This document shows, one piece after another, positions 7,388 to 47,430 of a stretch of 47,430 bases of DNA. How positions within the stretch are numbered: the stretch's first letter is position 1; every line of letters begins with the position of its first letter. The notes beneath the pieces are model-generated. The model was given only the letters and a program-made list of their open reading frames with translations, did no database searches and was not told the DNA's origin. The stretch comes from a virus: IMG/VR virus record IMGVR_UViG_3300046028_000627, positions 1 through 47,430 of that record; one strand, given 5' to 3'. A program made the position numbers and the translations under genes.

Positions 7388-7951
7388 ATGAAACAAGAGA
7401 ACACCTCGTTTGTAGGCACGGCTGTCGCCAGTGAAAATCAACTGCCCAACTGGCTGTCCGTGCCTGACCCAGAACCCCTCAGAACCTCGAAGGAGGCAAG
7501 GGCGTTGCTGCATGTCGAATATGAGCAAATCTTCGAGAGGGTCGTAGAAGACATCTACCGTGGCCGGTCCCTGCAATCGCTGATTGAGGATGACCACAGG
7601 GCCATCTCGTATGAGGACTTCCTGCGCTGGGTCAAGCGTGAACCCACCCGCCATGAACGGTTCAAAGAAGCGCAGGAGATGCGCACTGAGTTCTTGGCCG
7701 GAGAAATCCTAGAGATTGCCGATGGCGTTGAAGCAGTGGACCCCACATCGAACGATACGGTGAACAGGGACAAGCTGCGCATCGACACGCGCAAGTGGCT
7801 CATGAGCGCACACAACAAGAAACGCTACGGCGAGATCAAGCAGGTTGAACTCGGTGGCACCATCTCTATTACCGAGGCGCTGGCGCAGGCACAGGCCAGA
7901 GTGATCGAGGGTGAGGTGATCGACGTGACACCTCGACTGGAGAACGACTGA
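7388..7951 (+). CDS. Terminase small subunit (module A)
   Basis: A 187-residue protein that would recognise packaging sites and recruit the large subunit. The centre (about 50-85, DIYRGRSLQSLIEDDHRAIS, then DFLRWV) fits the helix-turn-helix of small terminases. It is followed by the typical EILEIAD and RDKLRIDTRKWLMSAHNKKRYG segments seen in small subunits that precede this type of large subunit. The stop overlaps the next start (TGATG). There is no ribosome site before 7388, and the promoter lies so close that the message might be leaderless. A later TTG (7506) after AAGGAGG is an alternative start. Confidence 0.75.
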   Translation: MKQENTSFVGTAVASENQLPNWLSVPDPEPLRTSKEARALLHVEYEQIFERVVEDIYRGRSLQSLIEDDHRAISYEDFLRWVKREPTRHERFKEAQEMRTEFLAGEILEIADGVEAVDPTSNDTVNRDKLRIDTRKWLMSAHNKKRYGEIKQVELGGTISITEALAQAQARVIEGEVIDVTPRLEND

Positions 7952-9492
7952 TGCAGAAGCCCCGGTACAGCCCAGAAGATGAGCAGACACTCATGTCGCA
8001 GCTTTGGAGTCCTGCTCTGAAGGATGACCCTGAAGCGTTTGTTTTGTTCCTGTTCCCCTGGGGGCAGAAGAACACCCCACTCGAACACTTCAAAGCCCCT
8101 CGCACATGGCAGCGCAGAGCCCTGCGCAGGATACGGGACTTTATCAAAGAGAACCGGGGGAAGATGAGCAACGACGAGTTGATCGACGCGATGCGAAGGG
8201 CTGTGTCATCGGGCCGAGGTGTGGGCAAGTCAGCACTGGTGTCGTGGCTGATCCTGTGGATGCTGACCACTCGTATTGGGTCGTCTGTGATCGTGTCGGC
8301 CAACAGCGAGAACCAGTTGCGTAAGGTCACATGGGGTGAGTTGACCAAATGGGTCACGATGGCGCTCAACGCGCACTGGTGGGAACCCACGGCCACGAGC
8401 CTGAACCCGGCCAACTGGTTGACTGATCTGGTCGAGCGTGACCTGAGGAAAGGCACCCGGTACTGGGGTGCCGAGGGTAAGCTGTGGAGCGAGGAGAACC
8501 CAGACGCCTACGCCGGTGTGCACAACATGGACGGCATGATGGTGATCTTTGACGAAGCGTCAGGTATCCCGGACAGCATCTGGTCCGTGGCTGCGGGCTT
8601 CTTTACCGAGAACATCTTGGACCGGTATTGGCTGGCGTTCAGCAACGGTCGTCGCAACACCGGGTACTTCTACGAGGCTGTGGACGGCAGCAAGCGGGAG
8701 TTCTGGGAGAGCGAGAAGATCGATGCCCGCACAGTCGAGGGCACCGACAAGACCATCTACCAGCAGATCATCAACGAGTACGGCGAGGACTCGGACGAGG
8801 CGCGGGTCGAGGTCTACGGCGACTTCCCCAAGTCGGGCCAAGACCAGTTCATCACACCACACATCGTGGACGATGCCATCAAGCGGCCCCTGTACAAAGA
8901 CATGACCGCGCCCATCATCATCGGCGTGGACCCGGCCCGGGGCGGCATGGACAGCACCGTGATCGCCGTGCGCCAAGGGCGGGACATCGTGGCGATCAAG
9001 CGGTTCAAGGGCGAGGACACCATGAGCGTAGTAGGCCACGTCATCGACGCCATCGAGGAGTACCGGCCAGCACTGACCGTAATCGACGAGGGTGGTCTGG
9101 GCTACGGCATCCTTGACAGATTGACCGAGCAGAAGTACAAAGTGCGCGGGGTCAACTTTGGCTGGAAGGCCAAGAACCCGACGATGTGGGGTAACAAGCG
9201 GGCTGAGATTTGGGGTGCGATGCGCGACTGGCTCAAGACCGCCAGCATCCCGCAGGACAGGATGCTCAAGTCCGACCTGATCGGCCCGATGAAGAAGCCC
9301 AACTCGGCTGGCACCATCTTTTTGGAAGGCAAGAAAGAGATGAAAGCGCGTGGAGTTGCATCACCCGATGCGGCTGACGCCATTGCCGTGACCTTTGCGT
9401 ACCCTGTGGCACATCGGGAGTACAATGAGCGAACAAATACCCGGCGCAACGCTCAAAACGGTGCTGCCCTTACTTCATGGATGGGTTCGTAA
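7951..9492 (+). CDS. Terminase large subunit (module A)
   Basis: A 513-residue DNA-packaging motor ATPase and nuclease. Walker A is GRGVGKS at 88-94. Walker B is MVIFDEAS at about 197-204, followed by the usual coupling region. The RNase-H-like nuclease starts with IIGVDPARGG at about 323, continues with TVIDEGGLGYG at about 375, and ends with PDAADAIAV near 470, giving the three acidic metal ligands. Length is normal for phage terminases. It is not closely similar to the second large terminase in the window (29307-30533), which is of the PBSX type, so the two are from different lineages. It starts one base inside the small-subunit stop. Confidence 0.9.
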   Translation: MQKPRYSPEDEQTLMSQLWSPALKDDPEAFVLFLFPWGQKNTPLEHFKAPRTWQRRALRRIRDFIKENRGKMSNDELIDAMRRAVSSGRGVGKSALVSWLILWMLTTRIGSSVIVSANSENQLRKVTWGELTKWVTMALNAHWWEPTATSLNPANWLTDLVERDLRKGTRYWGAEGKLWSEENPDAYAGVHNMDGMMVIFDEASGIPDSIWSVAAGFFTENILDRYWLAFSNGRRNTGYFYEAVDGSKREFWESEKIDARTVEGTDKTIYQQIINEYGEDSDEARVEVYGDFPKSGQDQFITPHIVDDAIKRPLYKDMTAPIIIGVDPARGGMDSTVIAVRQGRDIVAIKRFKGEDTMSVVGHVIDAIEEYRPALTVIDEGGLGYGILDRLTEQKYKVRGVNFGWKAKNPTMWGNKRAEIWGAMRDWLKTASIPQDRMLKSDLIGPMKKPNSAGTIFLEGKKEMKARGVASPDAADAIAVTFAYPVAHREYNERTNTRRNAQNGAALTSWMGS

Positions 9493-9645
9493 ATGCCACT
9501 CGTCAAATCACCCTCAAAAGAGGCATTTCGCAAGAATGTCAAGGCCGAAGTGTCTGCGGGTAAACCCGTAAAGCAGGCAGTTGCGATTGCCTACTCCGTC
9601 AAGCGTGAAGCTGCCAAAAAACCAACAATGAAGACCAAAAAATGA
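9493..9645 (+). CDS. Small Lys-rich phage protein (KxSGKPxKQAVAIA family)
   Basis: A 50-residue basic protein with the core FRKNVKAEVSAGKPVKQAVA and a Lys-rich tail. The same core, with matched spacing, appears in the protein at 35500-35664 of module B. Small proteins with this core are common in phage structural regions, and I know no function for them. The ATG follows the terminase stop by no gap (TAAATG), and its stop overlaps the start of the GroES-like gene. Confidence 0.75.
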   Translation: MPLVKSPSKEAFRKNVKAEVSAGKPVKQAVAIAYSVKREAAKKPTMKTKK

Positions 9646-9890
9646 GCCTCCAAGCCCTGCAAGACTGCCTGATCGTCCGCCCCGACATGGAAAAACATGA
9701 GCTTTTCATCCTGTTGCGCGACAAACAAACTGGCACGGGTGTGGTAATCTCCGTTGGGCCTGAAGCCAAGGACGTGAAAGTCGGCGACAAAGTGCTATTT
9801 GGTGATTCCATCGGCCAAGACCTAAAATACGAGGGTGACAACCTTCTGGTCATGAGGGAATCACACACCCTCGGAGTATTTGACGCATGA
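9642..9890 (+). CDS. GroES-like co-chaperonin
   Basis: An 82-residue protein with the GroES beta-barrel pattern: LQDCLIVRPD (6-15), GTGVVISVGPEAKDVKVGDK (31-50), VLFGDS, DLKYEGDNLLVMRES and a final LGVFD. In cells GroES caps GroEL. Phage versions such as T4 Gp31 redirect the host chaperonin to fold capsid proteins. This one is shorter than the bacterial protein (about 97 residues), and the mobile loop is reduced to the short segment around FILLRDKQT (22-30), where FILL could replace the GroEL-contacting IVL. No GroEL gene is present. It overlaps both neighbours by a few bases, tying it to terminase and portal expression. Confidence 0.8.
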   Translation: MSLQALQDCLIVRPDMEKHELFILLRDKQTGTGVVISVGPEAKDVKVGDKVLFGDSIGQDLKYEGDNLLVMRESHTLGVFDA

Positions 9891-12085
9891 AAGACACCAC
9901 CGGAATCGTAGCCGCAGCAAATGTGGCAAAAAACGGACCGAACCCGTCAAAAGGCGGTTCCGAGGAGATCCTGACTGTTGCCCGTTCACGTTTGAACACA
10001 GCAATGACTGCGTTTTCCGAGACTCGGGAAGACGAACTCGACGACTTGCGGTTCTACGCAGGCTCTCCAGACAACCAGTGGCAGTGGCCCGCTGATGTGC
10101 TCCAGACCCGTGGTTCTTTGCAGGGTCAAACGATCAATGCCCGTCCTTGCCTGACCATCAACAAGCTACCGCAGCACGTTCACCAAGTGACGAACGAGCA
10201 GCGCATGAACCGTCCTGGCATCAAGGTGATCCCGGCTGACGACAAGGCCGATGTGGACATGGCAGACGTGTTCAACGGCGTGATTCGCCACATCGAGTAC
10301 ATCTCGGACGCTGACGTGGCCTACGACACCGCCTGCGAGAACCAAGTGTCTTACGGCGAAGGTTACATTCGGGTCTTGACCGAGTATTGCGACGACAAGT
10401 CGTTCGATCAGGACATCAAGATCGGGCGCATTCGCAACAGTTTCAGCGTCTACATGGACCCCTTGATCCAAGACCCCGCAGGCGCAGACGCCCGCTGGTG
10501 CTTCATCACGGAAGACATCCCCAAGGCTGAATACGAGCGTTTGTACCCCGATGCAGCGCCTATCAGCACCCTCATGAGCCTTGGCGTGGGCGATCAGTCC
10601 ATTGCACAGTGGATCGGTGAAAACACCATTCGCATCGCCGAGTATTTCTACATCGAGTACGAGAAGCACACGCTCAACCTGTACCCCGGCAACCAGACTG
10701 CATTCAGCGGTACGCCCGAGGACAAGATGCTGCGCGAGATGTTCGGCAAGCCGATTCGCAGCCGCCAAGCTGACCGCAAAAAGGTCAAGTGGTGCAAGAT
10801 CAACGGCTACGACATCCTTGAGGAACGCGATTGGGCTGGTTCCTACATCCCCGTGGTGCGCGTGGTCGGCAACGAGTTTGAGGTTGACGGCCAGATGTAC
10901 GTGTCGGGCTTGGTGCGCAACGCCAAGGATGCCCAGCGCATGTACAACTACTGGGTGTCGCAGGAAGCTGAGATGCTGGCGCTGGCTCCCAAAGCCCCGT
11001 TCATCGGGTACGGCGGTCAGTTTGAAGGCTACGAGCAGCAGTGGAAGACTGCCAACACAAACAACTGGCCTTACCTTGAGGTCAATCCAGACGTTACAGA
11101 CGGCCAAGGCGCTGTGTTGCCACTACCCCAGCGGGCACAGCCTCCAATGGCTTCCAGCGGCCTGCTGCAAGCCAAGGCGGGTGCTGCCGAGGACATCAAG
11201 TCGGCCACCGGTCAGTACAACGCATCGCTGGGGATGACCAGCAACGAGCGTTCGGGTAAAGCCATTCTTGCGCGTCAGCGCGAAGGCGACATCGGCACCT
11301 ACCACTACGTTGACAACTTGGCCCGTGCGATCCGTCACATTGGTCGTCAACTCGTGGACCTGATCCCCAAGATTTACGACACCGAGCGCATTGCCCGCAT
11401 CATTGGCGAGGATGGTGAGCCATCGACCGTCAAGATGAACCCAGGGCAGCAAGAGCCGGTCAAGCGGATCGTGGACCAAGAAGGCGTGTTGATCGAGAAG
11501 ATCTACAACCCCGGCGTTGGCAAGTACGATGTGCGCGTGATTACCGGTCCTGGCTACGCCACCAAGCGTCAGGAAGCCTTGGAGAGCATGGCCCAGTTGC
11601 TGCAAGGCAACCCACAGTTGTGGCAAGTGGCTGGCGACCTGTTTGTCAAGAACATGGACTGGCCCGGTGCCCAAGACCTTGCCAAGCGGTTCAAAAAGAC
11701 CATCGACCCCAAAGTGCTGGCCGATGATGACGATCCAGCCTTGGCCGCTGCCAACCAGCAGATGCAGGCCATGCAAGCTGAGATGGAAAACATGTTCCAG
11801 ATGTTGCAAAACGTCAACCAGAGCATGGAAGTCCGTGATTTGGAAATCAAGGAACAGGCCAACCAGATCAAAGCATTCGATGCTGAGACTAAGCGTATCA
11901 GCGCCGTGCAGGCTGGTATGACTGAGCAGCAGATTCAAGACATCGCTATGGGTGTTGTGGCGGCTGCGATGGAAAGCAACGACAATATGGTCATGATGAA
12001 TGAGCAGCGTCAGATGCCTGAGATGCAGCCAGAGATGCAGCCCGAGATGATGCCACCTCAAGGAGAGATGAATGAAATGCGCTGA
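9887..12085 (+). CDS. P22-type portal protein (module A)
   Basis: A 732-residue portal that would form the dodecameric ring through which DNA enters and leaves the head. The family is shown by DDLRFYAGSPDNQWQWP near residue 50, CLTINKLPQHVHQVTNEQRM near 88, QVSYGEGYIRVLTEY, and GLLQAKAGAAEDIKSATGQY with the following SNERSGKAI. The C-terminal 150 residues are a Gln/Met-rich coiled coil ending in repeated MPEMQPEMQPEM, like the barrel and tail of P22 portals. It overlaps the GroES-like gene by 4 nt (ATGA). It belongs to a different subfamily from the portal at 30558. Confidence 0.88.
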   Translation: MKDTTGIVAAANVAKNGPNPSKGGSEEILTVARSRLNTAMTAFSETREDELDDLRFYAGSPDNQWQWPADVLQTRGSLQGQTINARPCLTINKLPQHVHQVTNEQRMNRPGIKVIPADDKADVDMADVFNGVIRHIEYISDADVAYDTACENQVSYGEGYIRVLTEYCDDKSFDQDIKIGRIRNSFSVYMDPLIQDPAGADARWCFITEDIPKAEYERLYPDAAPISTLMSLGVGDQSIAQWIGENTIRIAEYFYIEYEKHTLNLYPGNQTAFSGTPEDKMLREMFGKPIRSRQADRKKVKWCKINGYDILEERDWAGSYIPVVRVVGNEFEVDGQMYVSGLVRNAKDAQRMYNYWVSQEAEMLALAPKAPFIGYGGQFEGYEQQWKTANTNNWPYLEVNPDVTDGQGAVLPLPQRAQPPMASSGLLQAKAGAAEDIKSATGQYNASLGMTSNERSGKAILARQREGDIGTYHYVDNLARAIRHIGRQLVDLIPKIYDTERIARIIGEDGEPSTVKMNPGQQEPVKRIVDQEGVLIEKIYNPGVGKYDVRVITGPGYATKRQEALESMAQLLQGNPQLWQVAGDLFVKNMDWPGAQDLAKRFKKTIDPKVLADDDDPALAAANQQMQAMQAEMENMFQMLQNVNQSMEVRDLEIKEQANQIKAFDAETKRISAVQAGMTEQQIQDIAMGVVAAAMESNDNMVMMNEQRQMPEMQPEMQPEMMPPQGEMNEMR

Positions 12086-12445: not shown

Positions 12446-14518
12446 ATGGCCGTGACTCTTTCGCTGTTTGCTGGTGCAGGCGCTCAATTTTTTGACAACA
12501 ATGGCAACGTGTTGTCCGGTGGCAAGATTTACACGTATCAAGCAGGTACAACTACTCCGCTGGCCGTGTACACATCAAACGCCGAGTCTGCTTTTCACAC
12601 CAACCCGATTATTTTGGATTCTGCCGGTCGTGTGCCTAGCGGCGGCGAAATTTGGTTGCAGCTTGGAATCGGGTACAAGTTTGTGCTTAGAACATCAACA
12701 GATGTTTTGATTGCCACATACGACAACATCCCATCATCCGCGCAGCCGCCAGCCGCCAATGATGCCGATTCCATCATGTACGAGCAGGGCTACACCGTTA
12801 CGGCGGGTAGCTTTGTTGTAGGAAAAATTTACCGGATTGCGTCTGTTGGTACAACCGATTTCACCTTGATTGGTGCGACAAATAACACAGTCGGCACCCA
12901 CTTCATTGCAACAGGTGTGGGTACTGGCACAGGTACAGCAGAACTATCCCAGACTGTCGAAACCAAACTCCGCGAAACCGTCAGCGTCAAGGACTTTGGT
13001 GCTGTTGGTGATGGCGTTGCGGATGACACTGTTGAAATTCAAGCAGCACTTGACAGCGGCGCTGATGCTGTTTATTTCCCCTCTGGAACATACAACATTT
13101 CAGCCTCGCTAGACGTATCAAGCAATACCGCTATTTACGGGGATTCGTTTACGTCAATCGTGGAATCAACCACATCGGATTTTTACTTATTTGAAATTCC
13201 AAACGGTTCTAGCAACATTTCATTTAACGGCATTGATTTTGTCGGTGCTGCAACTGCCTCACAAGCAACTCCGCAGTGGGCTATCTACTCTGACACAGTT
13301 GACGCTTCAACTGATGTATCCATCACAGACTGCCGATTTCGTTACGTCAACAACGCAGTTGCGTTCGGCAACGGTACTCGCTACCGAGTTCAAAATTGCG
13401 TGTTTGAACACATCATGGGGGTTAATCCTGCATCACCCAGTACCGCTGGCAATGGTTACGGCGTAGCCAGCTTTGGGGCTTCTGGAGGCTACCATACCGT
13501 TTCCAGCAATCAGTTTATCGGAGCAGTAGGTGAGGGTCGCCATGCTGTGTACTTCACCAACGGCACATCATATTCTCAAATCACAAACAATAACATTCGG
13601 GACTTTAACGAAATAAATATTAGTGTTCGTGCCGAATCACCGCAACCGGGAGTTATTGGAAACATCGTCAGCGGCAACACCTGTATCGGTGGCGGCACTT
13701 CGACTACTGCCGAAAGTGGTTGTATTTCTATTTCAGGAGTGGCCAAATACAATACAATTTCAAACAACATTGTTGGTAATTTTGACAATGATGGAATTGT
13801 AATTTCACACCAAAGCCAAGGCGCAAATTGTTTGCGAAATTACGTCAGCAACAACTACGTGTTTTTGTGCGGGTTATCGGGAATTGTTGTGACAGGTTCA
13901 CCCCAAACCGATGTTGTTGGAAACAGATTTTTTAATTGTTCGCAAAATTCTTCTGGTGTTTCATCTGGTATCACTATTGGATCGCAGGGTTCAGGCGGGT
14001 CTGGTTTTGCAATAGACCCTGCTGATTGTAATTTCATTAGCAACTTTGTGACTGGCGCAGATAACAGATTTGCTTTTAGAATTCTCGCTTCCGTACCGGT
14101 TCCGACTAACACCAACATTGTGGCGAATACATTCAATATTGGTACGACACCCGATTTTGCTGTTTCGCTAAACATGGACGTAGGTGTTGTTCCAAATTAT
14201 GCTTTTAACATTACCGATCAAGCTGACGCTAGTGGTTTTTCTGACATTAAGCAAACAATGTCACGATCTGGCACGTTTGACTTTGCGAGCATTCCAGCAA
14301 ACACCACTGCGGAATTAACACGCGCAATCACTGGTGTAACGACAACAGGTTGGGTAGTGGTTGCATCGCCAGAAGGCGGTGTGATCGAGTCCGGACTTGT
14401 TTGGAGCGCGTATGTCAGTGCGGCAAACACGGTGACTTTGCGGATTGCTAACGTAACAACCAGTGCAATCAACCCCGCATCTTGCGTTTGGCGGTTTGAT
14501 TGCTTCAGACATGGTTAA
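12446..14518 (+). CDS. Tailspike with right-handed beta-helix (first copy, complete)
   Basis: A 690-residue receptor-binding and probably polysaccharide-cleaving tailspike. Residues 1-105 are an adapter domain (LSLFAGAGAQFFDNNGNVLS and onward), different from the P22 type. Residues about 120-165 carry a small repeat motif (VGKIYRIASVGTTDFTLIGA) common in phage structural proteins. From about 180 (VSVKDFGAVGDG) begins a pectate-lyase-3-like beta-helix with many Asn-rich turns (ISNN, VSNN, ITNN), to about residue 560, then a C-terminal beta domain. DNA from about 12975 to 13967 is nearly the same as 46437-47430 in the second tailspike. AT content is higher than in the portal gene. Confidence 0.85.
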   Translation: MAVTLSLFAGAGAQFFDNNGNVLSGGKIYTYQAGTTTPLAVYTSNAESAFHTNPIILDSAGRVPSGGEIWLQLGIGYKFVLRTSTDVLIATYDNIPSSAQPPAANDADSIMYEQGYTVTAGSFVVGKIYRIASVGTTDFTLIGATNNTVGTHFIATGVGTGTGTAELSQTVETKLRETVSVKDFGAVGDGVADDTVEIQAALDSGADAVYFPSGTYNISASLDVSSNTAIYGDSFTSIVESTTSDFYLFEIPNGSSNISFNGIDFVGAATASQATPQWAIYSDTVDASTDVSITDCRFRYVNNAVAFGNGTRYRVQNCVFEHIMGVNPASPSTAGNGYGVASFGASGGYHTVSSNQFIGAVGEGRHAVYFTNGTSYSQITNNNIRDFNEINISVRAESPQPGVIGNIVSGNTCIGGGTSTTAESGCISISGVAKYNTISNNIVGNFDNDGIVISHQSQGANCLRNYVSNNYVFLCGLSGIVVTGSPQTDVVGNRFFNCSQNSSGVSSGITIGSQGSGGSGFAIDPADCNFISNFVTGADNRFAFRILASVPVPTNTNIVANTFNIGTTPDFAVSLNMDVGVVPNYAFNITDQADASGFSDIKQTMSRSGTFDFASIPANTTAELTRAITGVTTTGWVVVASPEGGVIESGLVWSAYVSAANTVTLRIANVTTSAINPASCVWRFDCFRHG

Positions 14519-27150: not shown

Positions 27151-27951
27151 ATGACCAATCCAGCGGACAAAGTTCAAAAGTGGGCCATTGAAAAACTCAT
27201 ACCCTACGCACGCAATGCACGCACGCACTCGGACGAGCAAGTCGCACAGATTGCTGCAAGCATCAAAGAATGGGGCTGGACAACACCAGTGCTTGTGGAC
27301 GAGGATGGCGGGATCATTGCAGGGCATGGGCGCACACTGGCGGCGCAGAAGCTGAAGATGACAGAAGTGCCTGTAATGGTGGCAAAAGGCTGGTCAGATG
27401 TCAAAAAACGGGCTTACATCATTGCGGACAACAAACTTGCCCAAAATGCTGATTGGGATAATGCGATGTTATCCCTAGAGCTAGAAGAGCTTGATGGTCT
27501 GGGTTTTGACATCGACTTAACTGGTTTTACACCAGAGGAAATTTCTGAGCTTTTGTTGCCTGATGTTAACGATGAACAAATTGATAGCAGTAAGTACACA
27601 AAAAAAATAGATGCCCCTGTTTATTCGCCATCCGGTGATTGTCCCGCTGTAAATGAACTTTACGACAAAGTGAAATATGAACAGCTAACGGCAAAAATTT
27701 ATCAGGACCCTGAAATTAAGGCAGAGGTAAAAGATTTTTTGCTGGCTGCGGCAGCAAGACACATACGATTCGACTTTGAGCAAATTGCTGAGTTTTATGC
27801 ACACGCAGACCCTGACTTGCAGCAGCTCATGGAAGACAGCGCACTGGTCATCATTGACTTTGATAAGGCCATTGCAAACGGTTACGTAAAGCTTTCGCAA
27901 GCCATCAGTGATGTCTACGCTGGCGAAAAGGGCGAAGAACATGATGCCTAA
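27151..27951 (+). CDS. ParB/Srx-fold protein, partner of the DNA glycosyltransferase
   Basis: A 266-residue protein. Residues 10-95 are a ParB-like nuclease fold: IEKLIPYARNARTHSDEQ, then GGIIAGHGRTLAAQKL with the conserved GHGR (58-61), then DNKLAQNADWD (93-103). This version is usually found with DNA-modifying enzymes, not with chromosome partition. Residues about 155-266 form a second, helical domain (FDFEQIAEFYAHADPDLQQL, ALVIIDFDKAIANGYVKLS) which I cannot name. It overlaps the glycosyltransferase by about 11 nt, so the two are co-translated. In known cases such proteins are thought to guide or process modified DNA. Confidence 0.75.
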   Translation: MTNPADKVQKWAIEKLIPYARNARTHSDEQVAQIAASIKEWGWTTPVLVDEDGGIIAGHGRTLAAQKLKMTEVPVMVAKGWSDVKKRAYIIADNKLAQNADWDNAMLSLELEELDGLGFDIDLTGFTPEEISELLLPDVNDEQIDSSKYTKKIDAPVYSPSGDCPAVNELYDKVKYEQLTAKIYQDPEIKAEVKDFLLAAAARHIRFDFEQIAEFYAHADPDLQQLMEDSALVIIDFDKAIANGYVKLSQAISDVYAGEKGEEHDA

Positions 27952-28846
27952 GACCTTTGCTGTTTTTATTCTGACACATGGGCGGGCAAACAATGTTTAC
28001 ACCTACCAGACCCTACGCAAAAGCGGCTACACAGGTAAGATTTACCTGATTTGTGACGATGAAGACAAACAGCTTGATAAATACAAAGAGGTTTACGACA
28101 AAGACTCTGTCATTGTTTTTAACAAGCAAGAGGCTATTGATGCCACTGATAGCGGTGACAACTTCAAGAAACGCAACAGTGTGGTGTACGCAAGAAACAT
28201 CAGCTTCAAAATTGCGGCAGATCTTGGGTTGACACACTTTTGGCAACTGGATGACGATTACACAAGGTTTGATTACTCAACCAACGAGGAAATGCAATAC
28301 ATCACATCCCAAAACAAGATTGGCAACCTTGACGATGTGCTTGTCGCACTAATTGGGTTTTTAGATACAACACCATTTCATTCGGTTGCATTTGCACAGG
28401 GTGGGGACTTTATTGGTGGCGAGGGTTGCGTTTTACTCAGCAAGATGCGAAAAGATGAAATCTACCGCAAGGTAATGAATTCTTTTATGTTTCGGGTAGA
28501 TCGTCCAGTAGAGTTCATGGGCCGCATCAACGAGGATGTGAACATGTATGTCGAATGGGGCAGACGTGGCAATCTTTTCATGACCACACCCCAGTTACGC
28601 TTGCAGCAAGTCGTTACGCAGCAAAACGCAGGTGGATTGACTGAAATCTACCTTGACCTTGGCACGTATACAAAATCGTTCTATTCGGTGATGTACGCAC
28701 CATCGTGTGTAAAAATCTCAGAAGTAGGCACAAACGATAAGCGAATACACCATCAAGTATCATGGAAGCATACTGCGCCCAAGATACTGAGTGAGGAGCA
28801 TCGCAAGCCAAGGCTGCTGTCACGCATTACAAGCACAGTCAAGTAA
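27941..28846 (+). CDS. TET-associated-type (TAGT) DNA glycosyltransferase
   Basis: A 301-residue GT-A-like transferase. It opens KTFAVFILTHGRANNVYTYQ with KIYLICDDEDKQLDKY, then the metal-binding HFWQLDDDYTRFDY (D104-D106), GGDFIGGEGCVLLSK, RINEDVNMYVEWGRRG and VSWKHTAPKIL. This matches my memory of TAGT proteins, which add sugar to hydroxymethylated cytosine in phage DNA. The adjacent ParB-like gene is also a known companion. No cytosine methyltransferase or TET/JBP dioxygenase is in the window, so the hydroxylated base would have to come from outside it or be a different one. Two ATGs (27941, 27944) are possible. Confidence 0.75.
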   Translation: MMPKTFAVFILTHGRANNVYTYQTLRKSGYTGKIYLICDDEDKQLDKYKEVYDKDSVIVFNKQEAIDATDSGDNFKKRNSVVYARNISFKIAADLGLTHFWQLDDDYTRFDYSTNEEMQYITSQNKIGNLDDVLVALIGFLDTTPFHSVAFAQGGDFIGGEGCVLLSKMRKDEIYRKVMNSFMFRVDRPVEFMGRINEDVNMYVEWGRRGNLFMTTPQLRLQQVVTQQNAGGLTEIYLDLGTYTKSFYSVMYAPSCVKISEVGTNDKRIHHQVSWKHTAPKILSEEHRKPRLLSRITSTVK

Positions 28847-28879: not shown

Positions 28880-29314
28880 ATGAAGAAAAGTACTGAAAAT
28901 TCCACCCGACTGCCTAAAAAAGAGGCAGATGAGCCTAAAAAGAATGGCGGAGCCAGAGAGGGTTCTGGCAGAAAGCCATTTTTGCCGACAGATTCAGAGC
29001 GCAAACAAGTTGAGGCCATGTCTGGTTATGGTGTGCCATTTGAGCAGATTGCCGCCCTTGTTCGTGAGGGAATCGACATTGATACGCTACGAAAATACTT
29101 TAGCGCAGAGTTGGTGAACGGCAAGGCCAAAGCAAACGCACAAATTGGCAAGGGCATATTCCAAAAAGCAATGGCTGGTGATACCACTGCACAGATTTGG
29201 TGGTCAAAGTGCCAGATGGGTTGGAAGGAAACCCACAAGCACGAACTAACAGGCGCTGATGGACAGCCGCTTGAATTCACCAAGATTGAACGTGTAATCG
29301 TCAAACATGCATAA
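28880..29314 (+). CDS. Terminase small subunit (module B)
   Basis: A 144-residue protein with a basic, flexible start (GGAREGSGRKPFLPT), a helix-turn-helix at about 40-75 (VEAMSGYGVPFEQIAALVRE then DTLRKYF), and AKANAQIGKGIFQKAMAGDT with MGWKET. This is the usual layout of small terminases before PBSX-type large subunits. It overlaps the large subunit by 8 nt and is preceded by GCGGAGG 8 nt from the ATG. Confidence 0.75.
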   Translation: MKKSTENSTRLPKKEADEPKKNGGAREGSGRKPFLPTDSERKQVEAMSGYGVPFEQIAALVREGIDIDTLRKYFSAELVNGKAKANAQIGKGIFQKAMAGDTTAQIWWSKCQMGWKETHKHELTGADGQPLEFTKIERVIVKHA

Positions 29315-30533
29315 AGTTTTGCAGCTTCAGACACCAGAATGGGCGCAACCCTTGCTGGAGTCGGCACGCTACAAAGGCGCATGGGGTGGGCGTGGATCTG
29401 GCAAGTCGCATATGTTCGCCGAGCTGATGATTGAAATGCACATCATGGATCAGAAGCGGCGCAGCGTTTGCGTCCGTGAGATACAGAAATCCCTGAACCA
29501 ATCGGTAAAGCGTTTGCTGGAGACCAAAATTGAGGCCATGAACGCTGGCGCTTACTTTGAAGTCCAGGATTCGGTCATCAAGTCCAAGAAGGGCGATGGG
29601 GCCATTATCTTTCAGGGTATGCAGAACCACACAGCCGACAGCATTAAGTCGCTGGAGGGCTACGACTGCGCCTGGGTAGAGGAAGCCCAAAGCCTGAGTC
29701 AGTCCAGCCTTGACCTATTGAGGCCAACCATCCGCAAGCCTGACAGTGAACTATGGTTCACATGGAACCCCCGACAGCAAAGCGACCCTGTTGATTTTCT
29801 GTTGCGAGGCCCAGAGCCACCTGTAGATGCCAAGGTCATCAAGGTGAACTTTGGGGAAAACCCTTGGTTTCCGCAAGTCCTCAAAGACGAAATGGAATAC
29901 GACAAGCGGCGTGACCCTGACAAATACCAGCATGTTTGGATGGGTCAGTATCTGCGTAACAGCAACGCCAGGGTGTTCAAGAACTGGAAGATTGACGATT
30001 TTGAAGCACCGCCAGATGCCATCCACCGACTTGGCGCTGATTGGGGATTTTCGATTGACCCGACAGTGCTGGTGCGCTGCCACATCATTGGGCGCACGCT
30101 GTTCATTGACTACGAAGCCTACATGGTTGGGTGTGAAATCATCAACACGCCCGAGCTATTCATGCAAGTGCCTGAGAGCGAACGCTGGCCGATCGTGGCA
30201 GATTCAGCCAGGCCCGAGACCATCAGCCACATGAAGCGCAACGGCTTTCCAAAGATTATGACTGCCGTAAAAGGGCCAAAGTCTGTCGAGGAAGGCATCG
30301 AATTCCTGAAGAACTACGACATCGTGGTTCACCCTCGCTGTATACACACCATTGACGAACTGAGCCTCTACAGCTACAAGTCAGACCCCCTGACGGGTAG
30401 AATCCTGCCTGTGCTGGAGGACAAAAAGAACCATGTGATTGATGCGCTGAGATATGCTTGCGAGGGTGTCAGGCGTGCAGCAGTGACCAAGACGATCAAC
30501 TTCACGCCATTGCCGACCATAAACAAATGGTAG
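29307..30533 (+). CDS. Terminase large subunit, PBSX type (module B)
   Basis: A 408-residue packaging ATPase and nuclease. Walker A is GGRGSGKS (27-34), the SVCVREIQKSL strand follows, and Walker B is CAWVEEAQ (121-128). The nuclease acids are D245 in RLGADWGFS, D299 in IVADSARPE and D379 in HVIDALRYA. Length and motif spacing fit the PBSX/XtmB family. It is a different lineage from the module A large subunit, so the window carries two complete packaging motors. Confidence 0.93.
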   Translation: MHKVLQLQTPEWAQPLLESARYKGAWGGRGSGKSHMFAELMIEMHIMDQKRRSVCVREIQKSLNQSVKRLLETKIEAMNAGAYFEVQDSVIKSKKGDGAIIFQGMQNHTADSIKSLEGYDCAWVEEAQSLSQSSLDLLRPTIRKPDSELWFTWNPRQQSDPVDFLLRGPEPPVDAKVIKVNFGENPWFPQVLKDEMEYDKRRDPDKYQHVWMGQYLRNSNARVFKNWKIDDFEAPPDAIHRLGADWGFSIDPTVLVRCHIIGRTLFIDYEAYMVGCEIINTPELFMQVPESERWPIVADSARPETISHMKRNGFPKIMTAVKGPKSVEEGIEFLKNYDIVVHPRCIHTIDELSLYSYKSDPLTGRILPVLEDKKNHVIDALRYACEGVRRAAVTKTINFTPLPTINKW

Positions 30534-30557
30534 AAAATCGGTTAACAAAGGACAATC

Positions 30558-32621
30558 ATGGCAAGAATCTCAAACGACCAACGGCTTTCGAATCTACACA
30601 CCGAAGCCCTGCGCCAGTTCAATGACATCCAGACTGCGCTGCGTGACGAGCGCCTACAGTGCTTGCAAGACAGGCGGTTCTACTCCCTGTGCGGCGCTCA
30701 GTGGGAAGGCCCACTGTGGGATCAGTACGAGAACAAGCCCAAGTTTGAGGTCAACAAGATCATGCTGGCGGTCATTCGCATCGTCAACGAATACCGCAAC
30801 AACCGCATTACTGTGGACTACGTGTCCAAAGATGGCACAGACAACTCAAAGCTGGCAGAGGTCTGTGATGGCCTGTATCGTGCTGACGAACAAGCATCGG
30901 TCGCTGATGAAGCCTACGACAACGCTTTTGAGGAAGCCGTAGGCGGCGGCATTGGCGCATGGCGGCTGCGGACAGTCTACGAAGACGAAGAGAATGACGA
31001 GGATGACCGACAGCGCATCCGCATGGAGCCAATCTTTGATGCTGACAGCTCGGTGTTCTTTGATCTGAACGCCAAGCGCCAAGACAAGTCAGACGCTAAG
31101 TACGCTTTTGTGGTCACCAGCATGACCCGTGAGAGCTACAAAGAAACCTACAACGATGACCCAACGGATTGGCCCAAGATCATCCATCAATACGAATTCG
31201 ATTGGGCAACGCCTGATGTCGTGTTTGTAGCTGAGTATTACAAGGTCGAGGAAAAGACAGAGACAATCCGCATCTTTGAGGCCATTGACGGGACAGAGGA
31301 ACGCTACACAGCCAAAGACTTTGAGAACGATGAGACCCTTGAAGAAACTTTGATGGCCATCGGCACTCGGGAAGTCAGGCAGAAGCGGGTCAAGCGTATG
31401 CGTGTCCGCAAATACATTATGTCAGGCGGCAAAGTGCTTGAGGATGCTGGCTACATCGCTGGCAAGTGCATTCCGATTGTGGTGGTCTACGGCAAACGCT
31501 GGTTCGTGGACAACATCGAACGCTGCATGGGTGCTGTCAGATTGGCGAAAGATGCCCAACGCCTGAAGAATATGCAACTGTCCAAGCTGGGCGAAATCTC
31601 AGCCTTGTCAAGCATTGAGAAGCCCATCATGACCCCCGAGCAAGTGGCGGGTCATCAGCTTATGTGGGCAGAGGACAACCTACGTGATTACCCGTATCTG
31701 CTGATTAACCCAATCACTGGGCCTGATGGCAACACCCAAGCGGCTGGCCCATTGGCTTACACCAAGTCGGCATCTATTCCCCCCGCTATGGCTGCGCTTT
31801 TGCAGATCACCGAACAGGATATGCAAGACATCCTGGGCAACCCACAGGGCGCTGACAAGATCGTTTCTGGCGTGTCTGGTAAGGCCGTGGAGATGATCCA
31901 AACCCGTGTGGATATGCAGACGTTCATCTACATGAGCAACTTTGCCAAGGGTATGAAACGCTGCGGCGAGATTTGGTTAAGCATGGCTCGGGACATCTAC
32001 ACCGAAGACAAGCGCAAGATGAAAACCATTGCACCAACTGGCGAGTCCAGTGTGGTCGAGCTGATGAAGCCCATGATCGACACCGAAACAGGTGCGATGG
32101 TCATGGAAAATGATCTCAGCACCGCCACCTTTGATGTGGTTGCCGAAGTTGGTCCATCCAGCAGCAGCAAGCGAGCAGCTACTGTACGGGCATTGACCGG
32201 GATGCTCCAGATTACGACCGACCCAGAGACAGCGCAAGTGCTGACCGCAATGGCGATGATGAACATGGAAGGCGAAGGCGTGGGCGATGCCAATGCTTAC
32301 TTTCGCAAGAAGTTGCTCCGCATGGGTGTGGTTCAGCCCACCGATGTTGAAGCCGAAGAACTCATGGCCGAGATGCAAGGCAAGCCGCAAGACCCGAACG
32401 CTATGTACCTTCAAGCAGCAGCAGAGGGTGAATTGGCAAAAGCAGCCAAAGCCCGTGCTGACACCGTGGAGACAGTGGCAAGTGCCGAGTTGAAGCGTGC
32501 ACAAACGCTTGAAACATTGGGCAAAGTCGATGAAACTGCACAAAACATGGCGATGACCAATGCCCAGGCAGTGCAAGAGATATTGCAAGGACAGATTGTG
32601 CAGCCTGTTGCGAATCAGTAA
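30558..32621 (+). CDS. P22-type portal protein (module B)
   Basis: A 687-residue portal with P22-family features: GAQWEGPLWDQYENKPKFEV then NKIMLAVIRIVNEYRNNR near 45-80, AFEEAVGGGIGAWRL, the VDNIERCMGAVRLAKDAQR helix, and ADKIVSGVSGKAVEMIQTRV. The last 100 residues are Ala/Gln-rich helix (the barrel or crown). It lies between terminase and scaffold as in P22. Sequence is clearly different from the 732-residue portal at 9887. Confidence 0.92.
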   Translation: MARISNDQRLSNLHTEALRQFNDIQTALRDERLQCLQDRRFYSLCGAQWEGPLWDQYENKPKFEVNKIMLAVIRIVNEYRNNRITVDYVSKDGTDNSKLAEVCDGLYRADEQASVADEAYDNAFEEAVGGGIGAWRLRTVYEDEENDEDDRQRIRMEPIFDADSSVFFDLNAKRQDKSDAKYAFVVTSMTRESYKETYNDDPTDWPKIIHQYEFDWATPDVVFVAEYYKVEEKTETIRIFEAIDGTEERYTAKDFENDETLEETLMAIGTREVRQKRVKRMRVRKYIMSGGKVLEDAGYIAGKCIPIVVVYGKRWFVDNIERCMGAVRLAKDAQRLKNMQLSKLGEISALSSIEKPIMTPEQVAGHQLMWAEDNLRDYPYLLINPITGPDGNTQAAGPLAYTKSASIPPAMAALLQITEQDMQDILGNPQGADKIVSGVSGKAVEMIQTRVDMQTFIYMSNFAKGMKRCGEIWLSMARDIYTEDKRKMKTIAPTGESSVVELMKPMIDTETGAMVMENDLSTATFDVVAEVGPSSSSKRAATVRALTGMLQITTDPETAQVLTAMAMMNMEGEGVGDANAYFRKKLLRMGVVQPTDVEAEELMAEMQGKPQDPNAMYLQAAAEGELAKAAKARADTVETVASAELKRAQTLETLGKVDETAQNMAMTNAQAVQEILQGQIVQPVANQ

Positions 32622-46058: not shown

Positions 46059-47430
46059 ATGTCCGCACTCTCAGTTCAAGTCCCGTTCCCGGTCTTCCAA
46101 GACCGTGATGGGCAGCCTTTAGACAATGGTTATGTGTGGATTGGCACTGCAAATCTGTACCCGATAACTAACCCAGTTGTCGCTTACTTTGATGAAGCAT
46201 TGACGATCATTGCAGCGCAGCCCCTGCGTACGATCAACGGCTACATCTCCAATGCTGGAACGCCTGCTCAAGTCTATGTGGATGGTGTGAGCTTCAGCAT
46301 CTTGGTGCAGGACAGCAAAGGCTCGATGGTTTACAACTTTGCTAACGGGACAGGCCTAAGTCCAGATGCTTGCGGCGTTACATACGACCCACCTTTTACT
46401 GGTAGCGTTTCATATCCAGTGTGTGAAAAACTAGAGCAAACCGTCAGCGTCAAAGACTTTGGAGCTGTAGGTGATGGGATAGCCAATGACACGGCTGCAA
46501 TTCAGGCTGCACTTGACAGTGGTGCTGATGCTGTCTATTTCCCATCTGGAACATACAACATTTCAACCGAGTTATACGTGTCAAGCAACACTGCTATTCA
46601 CGGGGATTCGTTTACGTCAATCGTGGAATCAACCACATCGGATTTTTACTTATTTGAAATTCCAAACGGTTCTAGCAACATTTCATTTAACGGCATTGAT
46701 TTTGTCGGTGCTGCAACTGCCTCACAAGAAAATCCGCAATGGGCTATTTACTCCAGCACGACTGACGCTTCGACCAATGTATCAATTACAGACTGCCGAT
46801 TTCGTTACGTCAACAACGCAGTTGCGTTCGGCAACGGTACTCGCTACCGAGTTCAAAATTGCGTTTTTGAACACATCATAGGCGTTAACCCAGCATCATC
46901 AGGCGGTGCTGGCAATGGTTACGGCGTAGCTAGTTTTGGAGCTTCTGGTGGCTACCACACTGTCTCCAGCAATCAGTTTATCGGAGCAGTAGGTGAGGGT
47001 CGTCATGCTGTGTACTTCACCAACGGCACATCGTATTCTCAAATCACAAACAATAACATTCGGGACTTTAACGAAATACATATTTCTGTCCGCGCAGAAC
47101 TTCCACAGCCTGGCGTTATTGGAAACATCGTCAGCGGCAACACGTGTATTGGTGGAGGTACTTCGTCTACTGCCGAAAGTGGTTGTATTTCTATTTCAGG
47201 AGTGGCTAAATACAATACAATTTCAAACAACATTGTTGGTAATTTTGACAATGATGGAATTGTAATTTCACACCTCAGCCAAGGCGCAAATTGTTTGCGA
47301 AATTACGTCAGCAACAACTACGTGTTTTTGTGCGGGTTATCGGGAATTGTTGTGACAGGTTCACCCCAAACCGATGTTGTTGGAAACAGAGTTTTTAATT
47401 GTTCGCAAAATCCTTCTGGTGTTTCATCTG
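46059..47430 (+). CDS. Tailspike with P22-type head-binding domain (second copy, 3' end cut by the window)
   Basis: About 457 residues to the window edge. Residues 1-110 match the P22 tailspike head-binding domain: SVQVPFPVFQDRDGQPLDNG then YVWIGT, QPLRTINGYISNAGTPAQVY and SFSILVQDSKGSMVYNF. From about 129 (VSVKDFGAVGDGIANDT) a beta-helix begins that is nearly the same as in the first tailspike from its residue 180. The last base (47430) matches 13967 there, and both lie at the same codon position. AGGAG lies 9 nt before ATG 46059. It follows the ejection genes as gene 9 does in P22. Confidence 0.9.
   Translation, partial: MSALSVQVPFPVFQDRDGQPLDNGYVWIGTANLYPITNPVVAYFDEALTIIAAQPLRTINGYISNAGTPAQVYVDGVSFSILVQDSKGSMVYNFANGTGLSPDACGVTYDPPFTGSVSYPVCEKLEQTVSVKDFGAVGDGIANDTAAIQAALDSGADAVYFPSGTYNISTELYVSSNTAIHGDSFTSIVESTTSDFYLFEIPNGSSNISFNGIDFVGAATASQENPQWAIYSSTTDASTNVSITDCRFRYVNNAVAFGNGTRYRVQNCVFEHIIGVNPASSGGAGNGYGVASFGASGGYHTVSSNQFIGAVGEGRHAVYFTNGTSYSQITNNNIRDFNEIHISVRAELPQPGVIGNIVSGNTCIGGGTSSTAESGCISISGVAKYNTISNNIVGNFDNDGIVISHLSQGANCLRNYVSNNYVFLCGLSGIVVTGSPQTDVVGNRVFNCSQNPSGVSS

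Follow-up and report, generated by a model that had tools for sequence, protein, structure and literature searches.

A phage TAGT glycosyltransferase with an obligate, previously unnamed partner domain and no recognised enzymes to prepare its acceptor

The gene pair and the genome that carries it

The window analysed here is a 47,430-nucleotide stretch of viral DNA (IMG/VR record IMGVR_UViG_3300046028_000627), in which a gene for a protein with an N-terminal ParB_N domain and an additional C-terminal domain (hereafter CTD) overlaps a gene for a glycosyltransferase of the TAGT family, immediately upstream of the terminase genes (Table 1). The observation in the earlier note, that a ParB-fold protein with an extra C-terminal domain overlaps a GT-A-type glycosyltransferase with a DDD site and resembling TET-associated glycosyltransferases, is confirmed, as both reading frames exist and both assignments hold. 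The TAGT profile is matched over its full length (positions 1-205 of 205) with 124 bits against a curated cut-off of 27.5, while the ParB_N match lies just over its cut-off. In the PHROGs database, the upstream protein matches phrog_620 over nearly its full length, and the downstream protein matches phrog_842, named 'beta-glucosyl-HMC-alpha-glucosyltransferase' (E=1e-71). The pair is not a chance arrangement, since it recurs in hundreds of contigs and the TAGT has a dN/dS of about 0.02-0.05 against close relatives, so it is a working gene under purifying selection.

Table 1. Coordinates of the ParB_N-CTD and TAGT genes, their domains and motifs, and the adjacent packaging genes
Position	Strand	Feature	Support
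27151-27951	+	ParB_N-CTD protein (266 aa), homologue of E. coli Rac prophage YnaK	PF02195 E=7e-6; phrog_620 E=3e-67; full-length relatives
27151-27534	+	ParB_N (ParB/Srx-fold) domain, residues 1-128; optional module	Fold match to CTP-binding ParB structures, E=1e-7; absent in 43 of 136 scorable TAGT partners
27580-27906	+	CTD, residues 144-252; undescribed domain, predicted helical, preceded by a conserved, low-confidence YTxKIxxPxYEP segment; obligate partner of TAGT	No Pfam match above cut-off; linkage to TAGT; stands alone without ParB_N in pv27 and others
27941-27951	+	11-nt gene overlap (ATG at 27941 inside the end of the ParB gene, TAA at 27949-27951)	Longest ORFs overlap in 128 of 143 pairs
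27941-28846	+	TAGT glycosyltransferase, predicted GT-A fold (301 aa)	PF20691 E=9.8e-36; AlphaFold2 pLDDT 91.5, pTM 0.88; viral TAGT models (BFVD), TM 0.83
28250-28258	+	DDD metal/nucleotide-sugar motif (D104-D106)	D105 and D106 invariant, D104 at least 90% in 65 relatives
28529-28537	+	NED motif (N197-D199), candidate catalytic acidic pair	D199 at least 90% conserved in 65 relatives; N197-E198-D199 invariant in 12 relatives
28880-29314	+	Terminase small subunit, immediately downstream	phrog_309 E=7e-13
29307-30533	+	Terminase large subunit	PF04466 E=5e-31

The window probably joins two phages. It holds two packaging sets, with TerS, TerL and a P22-type portal at 7388-12082 in DNA of about 58% G+C and a second set at 28880-32621 in DNA of about 50%, and the 993 bp at 46438-47430 repeat 12975-13967, inside the tailspike gene, at 91%. 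Relatives of 32-33 kb align only with about 15.7-46.2 kb of the window, and their own contig ends overlap by 180 nt at 99.4% (relative G003), by 127 nt exactly (relative G004) and by 369 nt at 92%. In G003 the gene order runs from the equivalent of the 46-kb end through about 7 kb of tail genes straight into the equivalent of 15.7 kb. The ParB-TAGT phage is therefore a complete genome of about 32 kb inside 12.4-47.4 kb, and the first 12.4 kb belongs to another phage, the joint being probably a chimera, although a real recombinant remains possible. The earlier note had proposed that further modification enzymes might lie outside the window, and this proposal is rejected by the overlapping contig ends.

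Profile searches of the larger ORFs of the window against Pfam found no TET, C5-methyltransferase or thymidylate-synthase-family gene, the last including dCMP hydroxymethylase, and no GT-B alpha- or beta-glucosyltransferase; six-frame family searches of the window agree for the first three. The same scans found no ParA ATPase and no helix-turn-helix family, and the domain map of the ParB protein likewise shows no parS-binding helix-turn-helix domain, its C-terminal half being the CTD. A search of plasmids returned no match.

AlphaFold2 models the TAGT with confidence, and the best viral structural matches are TAGT proteins, with a T6-type enzyme of Klebsiella (PKO111) at TM 0.60-0.64. The earlier note had named a structure-based match to capsular or cell-wall glycosyltransferases as grounds for rejection, and no such placement was found: the fold search of the PDB returned only generic GT-A folds at TM of about 0.4-0.5, which do not discriminate, and sequence searches of the PDB returned nothing for TAGT. 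The ParB_N domain matches CTP-bound ParB, Noc and KorB structures and conserves G58, R61 and N94 in the nucleotide-binding regions, although the assignment of these residues to CTP motifs is an inference. For the CTD, sequence searches of the PDB gave only chance-level hits and the fold search no separate match; it is modelled as a helical bundle (residues about 174-260).

The C-terminal domain is the obligate partner of TAGT

In Vibrio phages such as pv27, the gene before TAGT encodes only the C-terminal half of the ParB protein. A tblastn search with this domain found 28 of 50,697 phage records, and all 28 are among the 37 records with a related TAGT. The other nine are decayed Lactobacillus delbrueckii phages (Ld17, LL-Ku, Ld25A), a divergent Porphyromonas phage that still has a ParB-CTD gene beside its TAGT, and one CTD-free type. 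The L. delbrueckii phages appear to form a decay series, in which Ld25A (locus L063, 90-515) looks like an internal deletion joining ParB_N to the TAGT C-terminus, while Ld17 (locus L064, 75-833) keeps a TAGT without the ParB/CTD gene. Scans of viral contigs and prokaryote genomes, some started from TAGT and some from CTD, gave 283 loci, of which 279 hold both CTD and TAGT, and the four exceptions are cut by contig ends.

In contrast, ParB_N is dispensable. Among the TAGT partners in 148 non-redundant loci, 93 carry ParB_N, 43 are CTD alone and 7 are truncated. The ParB_N state changes 12 times on a FastTree tree of TAGT, at least 6 of them by well-supported branches for the CTD-only group, and in three loci ParB_N is a separate gene 2-3 kb downstream of a CTD-only/TAGT pair (L213, 9529-10005; L225, 7820-8299; L284, 10554-11036). 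ParB_N is thus an interchangeable module, and CTD plus TAGT is the core. The earlier note had suggested that the C-terminal domain might be a targeting module; our results revise this, as it is the obligate partner of TAGT, while ParB_N is the better candidate for a DNA tether.

Distribution, neighbouring genes and acceptor-making enzymes

The pair spans Gram-negative, Lactobacillus, Nocardia, rumen and haloarchaeal viruses, including P22-like podoviruses, Rac-type prophages, Porphyromonas viruses and the haloarchaeal virus HHTV-2. A terminase-cluster gene lies within 5 kb in 82 of 95 ParB-CTD loci, and in about 20 rumen-type loci the core lies within a few genes of DNA polymerase A, in a replication neighbourhood with DnaB helicase, primase and RecA clusters. 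In E. coli the pair is the intact form of the Rac prophage gene ynaK and its neighbour, at least 80% of which is present in 887 of 5,426 complete genomes. In ATCC 8739, ynaK is annotated as incomplete, but the frame is open for 262 aa with ParB_N and CTD intact (locus L299, 15001-15786) and overlaps an intact TAGT. In K-12 MG1655 (locus L300, 7378-7641; genome positions 1425377-1425640), YnaK is an 87-aa ParB_N remnant and the TAGT is gone.

A variety of genes sit between CTD and TAGT or directly beside them. These include a histidine phosphatase fused to a cytidylyltransferase, in one case as a natural fusion of ParB_N, CTD, histidine phosphatase and cytidylyltransferase in a single 560-aa ORF (locus L276, 6739-8418); cytidylyltransferases with or without HAD phosphatase, resembling glycerol-3-phosphate cytidylyltransferase and heptose-1-phosphate adenylyltransferase; CofD-like plus MobA/GlmU-like nucleotidyltransferases; GalE/HldD-like epimerases (5 loci); radical SAM enzymes (13 non-redundant loci, among them L067, 5871-6830); and class I methyltransferases (6 loci). 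In L148 (6498-7898) and L211 (7132-8601) a P-loop NTPase/kinase-like domain, recognised from a Walker A motif seen by eye and a weak Pfam match, is fused to the N-terminus of TAGT. The nucleotide-sugar enzymes fit a real glycosyltransferase with tailored donors in some relatives, whereas the phage in the window has none and, we infer, would use host donors.

The known acceptor-making enzymes are absent not only from the window but also, with few exceptions, from the family. Searches for Tet_JBP in 26 records and in 396 genomes gave no hit at all and were uninformative; a repeat that included Nonlabens phage P12024L as a positive control detected the control (E=2.8e-29) and returned no hit in the window or in any of the CTD-TAGT records searched. 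The thymidylate-synthase family (PF00303) occurs in 1 of 39 CTD records, namely pv27, and a C5-methyltransferase in 2 of 39, while 8 of 148 loci have a C5-methyltransferase cluster member within 8 kb. P12024L shares the Pfam family and GT-A core with the TAGT described here, in a modification-like cluster, but it encodes TET (PF12851, E=3e-29), TAGT and an annotated methyltransferase in a row, and no CTD or ParB_N. TAGTs of the Vibrio 1.124/Aeromonas 65 type also lack CTD near the gene, and 6 of 9 CTD-free TAGT records (P12024L included) carry a PF00303 gene, against 1 of 39 CTD records (Fisher p=4e-5). It should be noted that genome size confounds this contrast, as most of the CTD-free controls are large T4-like phages; still, 15 CTD records above 60 kb show none either. 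The T2/T6 enzyme, also of the TAGT family, adds a second glucose to alpha-glucosyl-hmC (PMC13216743), which rests on dCMP hydroxymethylase plus alpha-GT, neither of which is present here.

A 2026 survey reported solitary TAGTs, without alpha-GT or beta-GT and with no known acceptor, in 288 of 753 glycosyltransferase-bearing phage genomes, and left them as potentially novel transferases without mentioning ParB or terminase (PMC13216743). The CTD-linked group is a defined subset of these with an obligate partner. We found no paper that describes the CTD link, although prior mention of a ParB-TAGT link in Iyer 2013, Burke 2021 or the GREB1 paper cannot be excluded, and no report of modified DNA in a ParB-TAGT virus such as HHTV-2 was found in the literature searched.

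A putative two-subunit glycosyltransferase

We propose, with moderate confidence, that ParB_N-CTD and TAGT form a two-subunit phage DNA glycosyltransferase. In this view, the TAGT subunit carries the GT-A active site and transfers a sugar from a nucleotide-sugar donor, usually the host's and in some relatives made by a phage cassette; the CTD is an obligate docking or activating subunit, made in step with TAGT through the overlapping genes; and ParB_N, where present, tethers or clamps the complex on phage DNA near replication or packaging. The product would be glycosylated phage DNA that resists host nucleases, and the acceptor would not be 5hmC made by a phage TET/5mC pathway or by a T4-like dCMP hydroxymethylase. 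Our analysis establishes the family, the predicted fold, the conserved catalytic residues, the obligate CTD-TAGT linkage, the optional nature of ParB_N, the absence of known acceptor-making enzymes and purifying selection, whereas the physical complex, the glycosylation of DNA, the tethering (and any binding and hydrolysis of CTP by ParB_N) and the protection of phage DNA are inferred. The TAGT identity and predicted fold, the action of the T2/T6 homologue on phage DNA, the co-occurrence of CTD and TAGT, the neighbouring polymerase and nucleotide-sugar genes, the absence of the known acceptor routes and the opposite charges of the CTD (acidic, mean -6) and TAGT (basic, +4.6) support this model. 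However, no sequence evidence names the acceptor, and the correlation of the CTD and TAGT trees is weak (mirror-tree r=0.25, hardly above 0.24 for CTD with TerL), so that co-evolution adds no support for direct contact; in addition, pv27 has both CTD-TAGT and a PF00303 gene, and the members with a nearby C5-methyltransferase could use 5mC.

The main rival, which we consider possible but less likely, is that TAGT glycosylates a phage protein, most simply its CTD partner or a packaging or replication protein, in order to regulate it. The strict 1:1 linkage, the overlapping genes and the invariant tyrosines Y149 and Y158 in a segment that AlphaFold leaves at low confidence are compatible with this, no acceptor-making enzymes would be needed, and the TAGT-related GREB1 is reported to O-GlcNAcylate a protein (PMC12645433), so the fold does not prove a DNA substrate. 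The kinship of GREB1 to TAGT is background knowledge, in line with a 'GREB1-related protein' label found in the E. coli genome search. Against this rival, the T6-type enzyme acts on DNA, the contexts are DNA-centred (ParB_N fusion, DNA polymerase A, terminase), and a conserved flexible segment is also what a partner-docking motif looks like. Of similarly low likelihood is a classic downstream glucosylation, in which a 5hmC, 5hmU or 5mC-derived acceptor is supplied by the host or by an unrecognised small phage enzyme and TAGT acts as in TET phages. The homology to T6-type and TET-associated enzymes favours it, host cytosine methylation is common, and a C5-methyltransferase is annotated about 10 kb upstream in the Rac prophage of ATCC 8739. 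Yet Tet_JBP is absent with a working control and PF00303 is absent from 38 of 39 records, hosts as unlike as Haloarcula, Lactobacillus, Nocardia and E. coli are not known to share a hydroxylated base, and, pv27 apart, TAGTs that sit with TET or PF00303 lack CTD.

Two further readings are very unlikely. An ordinary cell-surface glycosyltransferase (a serotype-conversion moron) that happens to lie next to a ParB gene is suggested only by distant PDB matches to TarS, TarP, SpsA and capsule polymerases, while the sequence and best structural matches are TAGT and the linkage to CTD is obligate across bacterial and archaeal viruses. A partition (ParABS) protein with an unrelated neighbour has the ParB_N domain and fold in its favour, but the lack of ParA and helix-turn-helix domain in the scans, together with the absence of ParB_N from many partners in which CTD and TAGT persist, argues against it.

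The interpretation in the earlier note is therefore partly supported: it was right that the enzyme is a TAGT, that it is paired with a ParB-domain protein and that the window encodes neither the methylating nor the hydroxylating enzyme, and its alternatives of host-made modified bases or of another base as acceptor are not excluded, but its remaining suggestions are revised as described above. Our findings give a large group of solitary TAGTs a defining feature and show that, apart from the exceptions counted above, they live without TET, C5-methyltransferase or dCMP hydroxymethylase. If the complex modifies DNA, there is an acceptor-forming step that nobody has described, with uses in enzyme discovery and in understanding phage escape from restriction and CRISPR, and as about one in six complete E. 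coli genomes carries the pair in a Rac-type prophage, the question is directly testable in this species. A more far-reaching possibility, which we regard as unlikely although it is not excluded, is that the CTD-TAGT complex needs no prior hydroxylation and glycosylates an ordinary DNA base, a DNA end or the backbone directly, or an acceptor made by its own cassette (CTD/ParB_N, radical SAM or kinase), which would be a new route to sugar-modified DNA spread through bacterial and archaeal viruses.

Extra TAGT copies flank some pairs, 17 in the non-redundant set, and tandem TAGTs, some with a second CTD copy, are found in loci L142, L146, L150, L239, L245 and L247. We speculate that these copies might add further sugars stepwise, as the T6 TAGT does. 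A single origin of the second copies is not supported, with 11 changes on a FastTree tree that has long branches.
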